NCBI GenBank assembly: GCA_017446045.1
Contig: JAFSRP010000003.1
Span: forward strand, 1-64,000
DNA length: 64,000 bases
Direction: 5' to 3'
DNA from: Lachnospiraceae bacterium
GTDB taxonomy: Bacteria; Bacillota; Clostridia; Lachnospirales; Lachnospiraceae
Each line of letters starts with the position of its first letter. Within the stretch, counting starts at the first letter, position 1. Position numbers and translations under genes: made by a program. Below are positions 29,380 to 32,548 of the stretch, piece after piece. The notes beneath the pieces are model-generated. The model saw only the letters and a program-made list of their open reading frames with translations, searched no databases and had not been told where the DNA came from.

Positions 29380-29531
29380 GGGATATGCGTCTCGTTTGCG
29401 CCTTGGCTTTGTGCAGCATGCGGCACCCATTCGCAATCCATTCTTGCTTGACACTGGGATACGCGTCTCGTACGCACTCCGTGCTCCCGATCCGCTCCAG
29501 CCATTCGGAATCCGCTCATTTTTCTGTGAAA
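29380..29531. repeat. Diverged tandem duplication, about 76-bp period
   Basis: GGGATATGCGTCTCGT (29380) recurs as GGGATACGCGTCTCGT (29456), and CCATTCGCAATCC recurs as CCATTCGGAATCC in register. Lies between the DUF4956 gene and the solenoid protein. Confidence 0.6.
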
Positions 29532-29611
29532 AATGGCTTCTTCCTCATGTCTGGCGGGCTTCATAAACATCCATCCGCATGTAAACATGCGCTTGACTGT
29601 TTATTCTGCCC

Positions 29612-30283
29612 TTATCCCATGTAGTCCCCGTTATAAGACACCAGCACCGCATCGGCGACGCCCGGCAGTTCGGTCAGTTCGTTGATGAAGTCCGTGTTGT
29701 CTTCCTTCAGGCGGATCGCCAGATTGAGTTCGACGGAGCCTCTGCGGGCTGTCTTGCTCTTGGTGACCGCCTTTTCAGTGTACTTTCCGACCATTTCCAC
29801 CGCGCGCTTTTCGCTTTCCGCGTCATCACAGTGAATGACCAGGATATAAGGATTGCGGTAAGCGCGGCGGTTCGAGAAGACCAGCAGCATGATGCCGATC
29901 ACGACGGAACCGATCACCGCGAGCGGGATCATGCCTGCTGCCAGTACGATGCCTGCCGCGATCGACCAGAACAGGAACGCAATGTCCAGCGGCTCCTTGA
30001 TCGCCGTACGGAAACGTACGATGGACAGGGCGCCGACCATACCGAGTGAAAGCACGACATTGCTGGAGATCGCAAGGATGACCAGGGCGGTGATCATGGT
30101 CATAGCGATCAGCGTCACCCCGAATCCGGAGGAGAACATGACCCCCGCATAGGTCTTTTTATAAACGTAAAAAATGTACAGTCCCAGGCAGAAGGACAGC
30201 ACCAGCGTCAGGACCATGTCGGTCACACCGACGGCTGTCACATTGTTTAAAAAGCTGGATTTGAATATGTCGTTGAATGTCAT
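29612..30283 (-). CDS. DUF4956 membrane protein
   Basis: Four membrane segments in the first 130 residues include the characteristic SLGMVGALSIVRFRTAIKEP. A cytosolic alpha/beta domain follows (PYILVIHCDDAESEKRAVEM, ending GVADAVLVSYNGDYMG). This is the DUF4956 arrangement. Family members are found beside VTC-domain polymerases, as here, but the biochemical role is not established to my knowledge. GAGGAGAG precedes the ATG. Confidence 0.88.
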   Translation of the reverse strand: MTFNDIFKSSFLNNVTAVGVTDMVLTLVLSFCLGLYIFYVYKKTYAGVMFSSGFGVTLIAMTMITALVILAISSNVVLSLGMVGALSIVRFRTAIKEPLDIAFLFWSIAAGIVLAAGMIPLAVIGSVVIGIMLLVFSNRRAYRNPYILVIHCDDAESEKRAVEMVGKYTEKAVTKSKTARRGSVELNLAIRLKEDNTDFINELTELPGVADAVLVSYNGDYMG

Positions 30284-31298: not shown

Positions 31299-31327
31299 TT
31301 GACACCTCGTAATGTTTACTATATAAT
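31299..31327 (+). promoter_or_regulatory. Consensus sigma-A promoter of cysK
   Basis: TTGACA (31299-31304), 17 bases, TATAAT (31322-31327): a perfect consensus. The transcript should start near 31334, about 285 bases before cysK. Confidence 0.88.
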
Positions 31328-31358
31328 AGCATATACAATATCCGAGTAGGAGCAGCAT

Positions 31359-31457
31359 TTGAGCAGAAATTATGCAGCAAACTGTATCTGTTGTTGTCTG
31401 TGTGAGGATCACTTCACACTTATTTCTGCTGCGCTTTCTCTGCATCGGTACGAATAG
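31359..31457 (+). CDS. Cysteine-rich leader peptide of the cysK attenuator
   Basis: A TTG start at 31359 lies six bases after AGGAG (31348-31352). The 32-residue product is MSRNYAAN-CICCCLC-EDHF..., with Cys codons (all TGT) at positions 9, 11, 12, 13 and 15. The frame stops at 31457, 29 bases before the terminator. A 9-bp helix (31362-31370 with 31422-31430) spans the Cys codons. Stalling there would free GCTTTCT (31433-31439), which can pair with the terminator's 5' arm GGGAAGC. This is the design of an amino-acid-sensing attenuator. A competing ATG frame at 31371 lacks a ribosome site. Confidence 0.72.
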   Translation: MSRNYAANCICCCLCEDHFTLISAALSLHRYE

Positions 31458-31485
31458 TATTTCGAGTATTATTGCAGATTTCCGA

Positions 31486-31510
31486 GGGAAGCCGGCAGGC
31501 TTCCCTTTTT
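31486..31510 (+). terminator. Attenuator terminator in the cysK leader
   Basis: GGGAAGCC (31486-31493) pairs perfectly with GGCTTCCC (31498-31505) around GGCA, then TTTTT. It lies inside the leader, before cysK, so it must be conditional. Confidence 0.9.
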
Positions 31511-31618
31511 GATTGTATAAGCTCTGCGCAGATCGATGAGGGAAGCGGACACGGGAAACCGGTCCCGCCTGCTTTCTGAAGGACATTTTAGATGGGTCGA
31601 TACCACCCGGGAGGAAAC

Positions 31619-32548
31619 ATGAGAGGCTTATATCATTCCGTAGACCAGCTGATCGGCAATACACCGGTCATGATGCTGGACCGCATCGTACAGAAACTTG
31701 GACTGAAGGCAAATATTGCCGCAAAGCTGGAGTATCTCAATCCGGCAGGCTCCGCAAAGGACCGCATCGCGAAAGCGATGATCGACCGCGCGGAAGCCAA
31801 TGGAAGCCTGCTTCCCGGTGGTACGATCATTGAGCCCACCTCGGGCAACACCGGCATCGGCCTCTGCGCCGTCGGTGTCCCGCGGGGCTACCGTGTGATC
31901 ATCGTCATGCCGGAAGACATGTCCCTCGAACGGCGCAAGCTCATCAGAGCCTACGGCGGGGAGCTGGTCCTGACCAGCGCGCAGGGAAGCCTGCCCGAGG
32001 CGATCGCAAAGTCCGAAGAGCTCCACAGATCCATTCCCGGAAGCATCCTTGCCGGCCAGTTCATCAATCCCGGCAATCCCGATGTACACTACCGTACAAC
32101 AGGCAGGGAGCTCTGGGAGGATATGGATGGAAAGATCGATTACTTCGTAGCCGGCATGGGCACCGGCGGCACGGTCACCGGGATCGCGCGGTATCTCAAG
32201 GAGCAGGATCCCACGATAAAGGTCGCCGTCATGGAACCGGAACATGCCGCTGTCCTTGCAGGTGAGGAAAGCCTGCCGCATAAGATCCAGGGAGTCGGTG
32301 ACGGCTTCGTTCCGGACGTCATGGATCCTTCCCTGGTGGACGAACTGCTCAAAGTCAGCGATGATGAAGCGCTTCACTATGCCCGCCTTATTTCCTCTGC
32401 AGAAGGCCTCCTGGTCGGCATCTCATCGGGCGCATGCCTGGCAGCTGCCGTACAGCTCGCGAAGCGTCCCGAAAACGAAGGAAAGACCATCGCCACCGTC
32501 TTCATGGACAGCGGCATGCGGTATTTCTCCACCGAGCTTTTCGATTAG
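31619..32548 (+). CDS. cysK: Cysteine synthase (O-acetylserine sulfhydrylase)
   Basis: It makes cysteine from O-acetylserine and sulfide using PLP. The PLP lysine is K47 in NPAGSAKDRIAKAM. PTSGNTGIGL binds the substrate carboxylate, GTGGTVTG the cofactor phosphate, and KIQGVGDGFVPDV completes the family pattern. At 309 residues it has the standard length. GGGAGG precedes the ATG at 31619. It is the only gene of its transcript before a terminator, and its leader carries the Cys-codon attenuator, so it should be induced when charged tRNA-Cys is scarce. Confidence 0.95.
   Translation: MRGLYHSVDQLIGNTPVMMLDRIVQKLGLKANIAAKLEYLNPAGSAKDRIAKAMIDRAEANGSLLPGGTIIEPTSGNTGIGLCAVGVPRGYRVIIVMPEDMSLERRKLIRAYGGELVLTSAQGSLPEAIAKSEELHRSIPGSILAGQFINPGNPDVHYRTTGRELWEDMDGKIDYFVAGMGTGGTVTGIARYLKEQDPTIKVAVMEPEHAAVLAGEESLPHKIQGVGDGFVPDVMDPSLVDELLKVSDDEALHYARLISSAEGLLVGISSGACLAAAVQLAKRPENEGKTIATVFMDSGMRYFSTELFD

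Follow-up and report, generated by a model that had tools for sequence, protein, structure and literature searches.

A probable cysteine leader-peptide attenuator before cysK in a Lachnospiraceae genome, and a wider set of cysteine leaders in Clostridia

In a T-box the specifier codon is read by a tRNA, and translation is not needed. In Firmicutes, cysteine genes are described as being controlled by CymR-type repressors, CysR or T-boxes; cysK-cysE of C. perfringens carries a Cys T-box, and for the cysK genes of other clostridia that lack a T-box the cited passages suggest other mechanisms (PMC2940859). The clostridial cysteine T-box, as presented there, resembles the locus described here in being a terminator that controls cysK in response to cysteine supply (PMC2940859), but no T-box was found at our leader. 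In Actinobacteria, short ORFs with a run of Cys codons precede cysteine genes, as at our locus, the examples being the cys operon of Mycobacterium and Propionibacterium and cbs of Bifidobacterium (PMC1262725). In the passages of that source cited here, the Cys run lies near the stop codon, the elements of an attenuator are missing, Rho is suggested and the Mycobacterium leader has no conserved terminator hairpin (PMC1262725); a later text cites the mycobacterial Cys leaders as leaderless and translational (PMC13236596, citing Canestrari 2020, in the part cited). Unlike these, our leader has a Shine-Dalgarno sequence, an intrinsic terminator and a Cys run internal to the ORF. Ribosome-mediated attenuation has also been proposed for uORFC-8-2, before cysS in Rhodobacterales, where Cys codons are likewise followed by an intrinsic terminator; according to the cited part of that work it differs from our leader in belonging to Alphaproteobacteria, in having two tandem Cys codons and in preceding a cysteinyl-tRNA synthetase gene and not cysK (PMC8632094). 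Within the Firmicutes, the histidine leader peptide of hisS/hisZ in Bacilli is, in the passages cited, a case of regular leader-peptide attenuation replacing a T-box (PMC2965389), although for histidine and not cysteine. A search of titles and abstracts in the open-licence PMC literature found no report of a cysteine leader in Firmicutes, which is no proof of absence. The element described here belongs to a known kind of regulator, in a lineage where we found none reported for cysteine.

The window, a stretch of 64,000 nucleotides, comes from a Lachnospiraceae genome of 2.26 Mb in 63 contigs (G000). As listed in Table 1, the region before cysK contains, in order, a promoter, a short ORF rich in Cys codons and an intrinsic terminator. 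The initial annotation had described the promoter as perfect, had read an AGGAG-TTG leader ORF with CICCCLC at codons 9-15 and a terminator with a T-run before cysK, and had seen no T-box; all of this was borne out. The cysK start conserved in both relatives (see below) is the ATG at 31619 (MRGLY) and not 31592. The helix that it drew across the Cys codons exists as a hairpin, but this runs from the last base of codon 14 to codon 21 and covers only the last Cys codon. The leader frame begins LSRNYAANCICCCLC and its predicted product is LSRNYAANCICCCLCEDHFTLISAALSLHRYE, with 17 codons separating the last Cys from the stop codon. The GCTTTC core of the proposed antiterminator starts 50 nt after Cys9, and the terminator stem, with arms GAGGGAAGCC/GGCTTCCCTT, occupies 31484-31507 ahead of the T-run. 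Three features by which leader-peptide attenuators are recognized, an ORF with a ribosome binding site (its translation predicted), a run of codons for the end product and an intrinsic terminator before the gene, are present, and the fold of the leader RNA beats 200 of 200 shuffles (z -4.36).

Table 1. Positions of the features of the cysK leader in the window and of the wider-family leader elsewhere in the same genome
Feature	Position	Strand	Evidence or remark
Sigma-70 promoter TTGACA-17-TATAAT	31299..31327	+	12/12 consensus matches
Shine-Dalgarno AGGAG of the leader ORF	31348..31352	+	Sequence; GGAG kept in both relatives (G001, G013)
Leader ORF, TTG start, 32 codons, TAG stop	31359..31457	+	TTG start kept in 3/3 genomes
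Region 1, GCAGCA, just 5' of the Cys codons, pairable with 31427-31432	31374..31379	+	
Regulatory codons 9-15, Cys-Ile-Cys-Cys-Cys-Leu-Cys (CICCCLC)	31383..31403	+	Five Cys invariant in 3/3
Hairpin GTGTGAGG-ATCA-CTTCACAC, codons 14-21, possible RNA polymerase pause hairpin	31400..31419	+	
Partner of region 1, TGCTGC	31427..31432	+	Pairing comparison in three genomes
Proposed antiterminator 5' strand, GCTTTCT	31433..31439	+	6-pair core with GGAAGC possible in 3/3
Intrinsic terminator, 10-bp stem, 4-nt loop, T-run	31484..31510	+	Sequence scan
Antiterminator 3' strand = terminator 5' arm, GGGAAGC	31486..31492	+	
Shine-Dalgarno GGGAGG of cysK	31609..31614	+	Sequence
cysK, cysteine synthase A	31619..32548	+	TIGR01139, 378.3 bits (cut-off 350.95)
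Wider-family leader of the genome's own paralogue cysK	L002 1180-1412 (G000:C58)		Further members among L332-L395

That a random Cys-rich ORF happened to fall before an ordinary terminator would be easier to accept in a genome where TGY runs are common, and TGYTGYTGY does occur 306 times here against 128 for the reversed pattern. Nevertheless, the window has 73 short ORFs that follow a Shine-Dalgarno sequence, and of these only the leader has five Cys in seven codons, the next best having three; in 40 first-order Markov sequences of window length five Cys were never reached and four appeared at 0.025 per sequence. The retention of the leader amid drift in all three genomes with this cysK, described below, is strong evidence against chance, which we regard as exceedingly improbable.

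A metabolite-binding riboswitch or a T-box could instead control the terminator, with the ORF incidental to it, as Cys T-boxes do control cysK in Clostridium perfringens in the account cited (PMC2940859). No Rfam family, T-box or other, matched the window leader at gathering score, and searches of the loci of both relatives and of the genome's own paralogue cysK returned no family at E up to 1, making such a reading improbable. The leader is also shorter than what we take a T-box to need.

The leader was found in three of 25 genomes of the genus, the window genome and two relatives (G001 and G013), and these are exactly the genomes with this cysK (protein identity to that of the window 80% in G001 and 76%, over a partial sequence, in G013); the remaining genus genomes have cysK-like genes at most 58% identical, or none. 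The gene upstream is a common one in G001 and G013 and a different one, a VTC-domain gene on the minus strand, in the window, showing that the leader travels with cysK. Beside this VTC-domain gene, flanked by a DUF4956 gene and a Cthe_2159 gene, the window also has a Clostridiales-1 RNA (RF01699) at 29455-29619 on the minus strand (86.1 bits, gathering 48). In the three sequences on which the conservation of the window leader is based, the five Cys codons are invariant, and pairwise identity is 27-29/30 bases from Ala6 to Cys15, 7-8/8 in GCGCTTTC and 16-19/20 in the terminator. It falls to 18-22 of 49-50 from GCTTTC to the terminator, 4-8/17 in the promoter spacer and 4-9/22 from the -10 box to the Shine-Dalgarno sequence, and intermediate in codons 1-5 (8-12/15) and 16-24 (16-23/27). 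Both relatives keep TTGACA and TATAAT despite the drift of the spacer, and the end of GCTTTC lies 16, 13 and 16 nt from the stop codon in the three genomes, though the sequence between them differs. The alignment proposed in the initial annotation thus came out mostly in its favour, with Cys codons and terminator persisting while the rest drifts.

Conservation in the peptide also goes beyond the Cys codons. Seventeen of 32 alignment columns are invariant in the three sequences, five of them Cys, and FTL and A.LS are kept outside the Cys run, as might be expected if nascent-chain arrest or slow translation in general were sensed, and not Cys-tRNA, with NYAANCICCCxC..FTL acting as an arrest peptide that switches the same hairpins. 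However, over codons 1-27 non-synonymous changes outnumber synonymous ones in every pair (8 vs 5, 7 vs 3 and 7 vs 1), so that the peptide as a whole does not appear strongly constrained; several of the kept residues coincide with paired RNA, and the downstream gene, cysK, is cognate for the Cys codons. On balance, we find arrest or general slowing of translation a rather unlikely basis for the switch.

The CxCCCxC motif of the peptide presumably resembles metal-binding runs, and this would fit a small peptide that serves by itself to bind metals or thiols, with the terminator ending its transcript and cysK expressed by leak-through. The position of cysK argues against it: in both relatives only about 20-25 nt, which include the Shine-Dalgarno sequence of cysK, separate the end of the terminator stem from the start of cysK, and a promoter scan of the window detected no further plus-strand promoter in the interval from the terminator to cysK. 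The genome's own paralogue cysK, moreover, has an unrelated Cys run at the same place, and we judge the peptide explanation quite improbable. In the window itself the terminator-to-cysK spacing is about 110 bases; the roughly 100 bases at 31511-31608 are absent from both relatives, repeat GGGAAGC and GCTTTCT in a foldable arrangement (hairpin 31552-31567), and are a possible remnant of a duplication.

Pairing was compared across the same three genomes. In all of them the region 1 helix can form its six pairs, one of which shows a double change from A-U to G-C; in the hairpin of codons 14-21 there is one G-C to A-U double change, and one pair is broken in G013. The terminator stem is kept in all three, its pair 31486/31505 being G-C in the window and A-T in both relatives. 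The alternative pairing of GCTTTCT with GGGAAGC, claimed in the initial annotation, amounts to 6-7 bp: a core of six pairs (one U-G) is possible in all three genomes, and the seventh is broken in both relatives. That this pairing depends on stalling was less well supported by folding, in which it was poorly predicted in the stalled states of all three genomes. With terminator arm 4 unmade, GCUUUC:GGAAGC had a probability of 0.93 in the window without a ribosome and of 0.36-0.39 with a stalled one, so that stalling does not raise the predicted antiterminator pairing there. The corresponding values were 0.82 and 0.03-0.21 in G013, and 0.14 and 0.00-0.15 for the conserved pairing in G001, which favours an upstream copy of GCUUUC, absent from the window (0.00 without a ribosome, 0.70 and 1.00 stalled). 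Once both terminator arms were made, the terminator had a probability of 0.99-1.00 at equilibrium in the stalled and stop-codon states that were folded. Folding of both states thus left the alternative pairing possible, but outcompeted by the terminator at equilibrium, and antitermination must then act kinetically. In the classical trp case antitermination is likewise kinetic. The region 1 helix had a probability of 1.00 in both relatives and of 0.00 in the window; there, GCAGAAAU has AUUUCUGC as its partner instead. Where it forms, this helix leaves GCUUUC exposed; control is therefore more likely exerted by a ribosome at the stop codon that hinders GCUUUC, and an untranslated leader should read through.

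We think it likely, judging from the sequence and its comparison, that the window leader is a ribosome-mediated transcription attenuator through which the supply of charged Cys-tRNA sets how strongly cysK is expressed. The order of the invariant pieces fits such a mechanism, with region 1 immediately 5' of the Cys codons, GCUUUC a short way ahead of the stop codon and GGAAGC within the terminator. Under cysteine scarcity, the ribosome would stall in the CICCC run (codons 9-13), leaving GCUUUC free to pair with GGGAAGC as RNA polymerase makes it; this pairing would block the terminator, and cysK would be transcribed. When cysteine is plentiful, the ribosome would reach the stop codon, 16 nt beyond GCUUUC, and could hinder the pairing of GCUUUC, so that the GGGAAGCC/GGCTTCCC terminator would form and transcription would end. 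The footprint of a ribosome at the stop codon would, we presume, cover GCUUUC only in part. RNA polymerase may pause at the hairpin of codons 14-21 and so stay in step with the ribosome, and an absent ribosome, like a stalled one, would leave GCUUUC free. If true, leader-peptide attenuation of cysK would add another means of controlling cysteine genes in Firmicutes to CymR-type repressors, CysR and T-boxes.

A search with the window leader peptides matched 164 of 397 genomes of the family at E up to 1, with a best E of 4.7e-4 once the window genome was excluded; of the next seven matches five were read (two of them cut by contig ends), and none of the five was a Cys leader with a terminator. 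A scan of named genomes with a DNA pattern returned at least 117 stretches, and among the 80 screened by script one was judged a true leader (L156, Lachnospiraceae bacterium RGIG3678).

Other cysK genes are preceded by Cys leaders with terminators that are unrelated to that of the window. The other cysK of the window genome, 54% identical to the first, follows the leader MFGNIDGRKNTAMCCCCMRSRACSMAG... and a terminator; a relative of this leader stands before cysK in G337, and a third kind, MFALCCCCHKKPFCAHSRYGQL, with its own terminator, precedes cysK in G281 (L269 1300-1430, G281:C31). In G281 the 5' arm of the terminator, GCGGAATGG, and the CCATTC of the leader are complementary. With an unrelated Cys leader at the paralogue and its relatives before sulfur genes, cysteine sensing becomes the natural reading of the window leader as well. 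These leaders were collected by scanning 140 stretches upstream of cysK-like genes, distant paralogues included, and flagging any ORF with at least three Cys in eight codons. Twenty stretches were flagged (5/31, 4/40, 4/29 and 7/40), and six held a convincing Cys leader (L001, L002, L007, L036, L269 and L318), in a scan that in most stretches was blind to leaders more than about 500 bases away, for instance before a first gene metY, and was in some cut by contig ends. Inspection by eye removed the remaining 14, which had no Shine-Dalgarno sequence or following terminator or lay inside other genes, seven of them after reading the upstream sequence (L020, L058, L272, L289, L295, L308 and L330) and seven from the scan line only.

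The leader of the paralogue proved to belong to a wider family, unrelated in sequence to the window leader, with the ORF core MCCRMxxSRAxxMAGA and the RNA core UGUCGAAUGC..CUCCCGGGC..AUGGCYGGGGCG..GCCAU..GCCCGGGAG, usually followed by a terminator. A search of the 397 family genomes with this second leader gave matches in 63 at E up to 0.05. Thirty loci were read and 21 judged homologous leaders, among them L344 and L349, which have no clear T-run (L344, from G128, is also poorly aligned in alignment A7); the nine dropped were L350, L351, L353, L354 and L356-L360. With the 21-row alignment, matches were obtained in 13 of 295 genomes of the order (E up to 0.001), 5 of 25 of the genus (E up to 0.01) and 12 of 371 of the class (E up to 5e-4), where the matches came from families outside the order; these genome draws overlap, and the window genome is in each. 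Four fetched matches, L377, L379, L380 and L383, did not have their membership confirmed. A motif count over the fetched loci, which is no census, gave 44 distinct sequences, a 45th regex match (L235) being dropped as chance. For the antiterminator helix CUCCCGGGCA/UGCCCGGGAG, 95.9% of cells are paired in the 44 sequences. In the 21-sequence alignment the antiterminator covaries: taking three helices together, 11 of the 21 pairs have changed on both sides, where shuffles give a mean of 4.4. Paired cells make up 89.1%, compared with 85.6% in shuffles and 34-48% with the partner slid, a slide control biased in favour of the structure because this was derived from the same sequences. In 14 loci of this family, an Rfam search gave no match covering the leader. 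This second family looks new as an RNA family, and looks to be the more novel part compared with the window leader.

The genes behind the wider-family leaders point to sulfur metabolism. NCBIfam models above their cut-offs identified cysK (L332), O-acetylhomoserine/O-acetylserine sulfhydrylase (L334, L361) and a PepT-like peptidase (L348); below cut-off were cystathionine gamma-lyase/synthase-like proteins (L339, L349), a MetQ/NlpA-like lipoprotein (L342), a substrate-binding protein (L337) and a partial sulfopropanediol-dehydratase-like glycyl radical enzyme (L355). The leader before this last enzyme is in G281, the genome that carries the third kind of Cys leader before cysK. By eye, a sulfhydrylase followed 12 of 20, 7 of 22 and 2 of 11 leaders in three locus sets, and MetQ-like lipoproteins followed six of the 11 in the third. 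Among five gene starts tested, L371 matched MetQ, L376 was PepT-like and L386 gave a weak match to glutamate-cysteine ligase (E 7.2e-4), with no match behind L385 and L388. Taken together, the predicted genes (cysK, metY-cysK, cystathionine enzymes, MetQ-like transporters, a peptidase and a sulfonate lyase-like enzyme) have the look of a regulon for sulfur and cysteine. The existence of the wider family suggests that ribosome stalling governs some of the cysteine regulon of Clostridia in gut and rumen. The outcome is a defined group of leaders open to testing, together with a candidate for annotation as a new RNA family.

We consider it probable that cysteine-leader attenuators have arisen separately several times in Lachnospiraceae-type Clostridia, the window leader being one of them and the largest an undescribed RNA/leader-peptide family that would run the cysteine regulon in several families of the class, and that the near-invariant Cys-Arg(CGA)-Met codons of this family hint at more than codon counting, such as nascent-peptide arrest. 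Most variants of the wider family strictly keep only one Cys codon (WCRM, YCRM and MCMRM occur), and UGU CGA AUG C is near invariant. In L389 the ORF ends right after ICCRMR while the RNA beyond is kept with compensatory change, and the SRAxxMAG part is therefore seemingly conserved as RNA. In L384 (G008:C40:5709-5801), read by eye, the Cys codons before CGA AUG are lost and the RNA core is kept. The invariance of UGU CGA AUG C and the loss in L384 may reflect a nascent-peptide effect or RNA pairing. One such pairing, the helix CGAAUGC/GCGUUCG, was tried as the cause of the invariant CGA AUG and set aside; the share of cells in which it pairs is 72.2%, compared with 28-42% on sliding, and its 5' strand hardly varies. 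Over the -35 box of several cysK genes (for example at L002 1095-1115, L318 200-216 and L009) lies a palindrome like CCTATTGACATAGTAGG, which presumably resembles an Rrf2/CymR-type operator and which inspection by eye did not reveal at the cysK promoter of the window.
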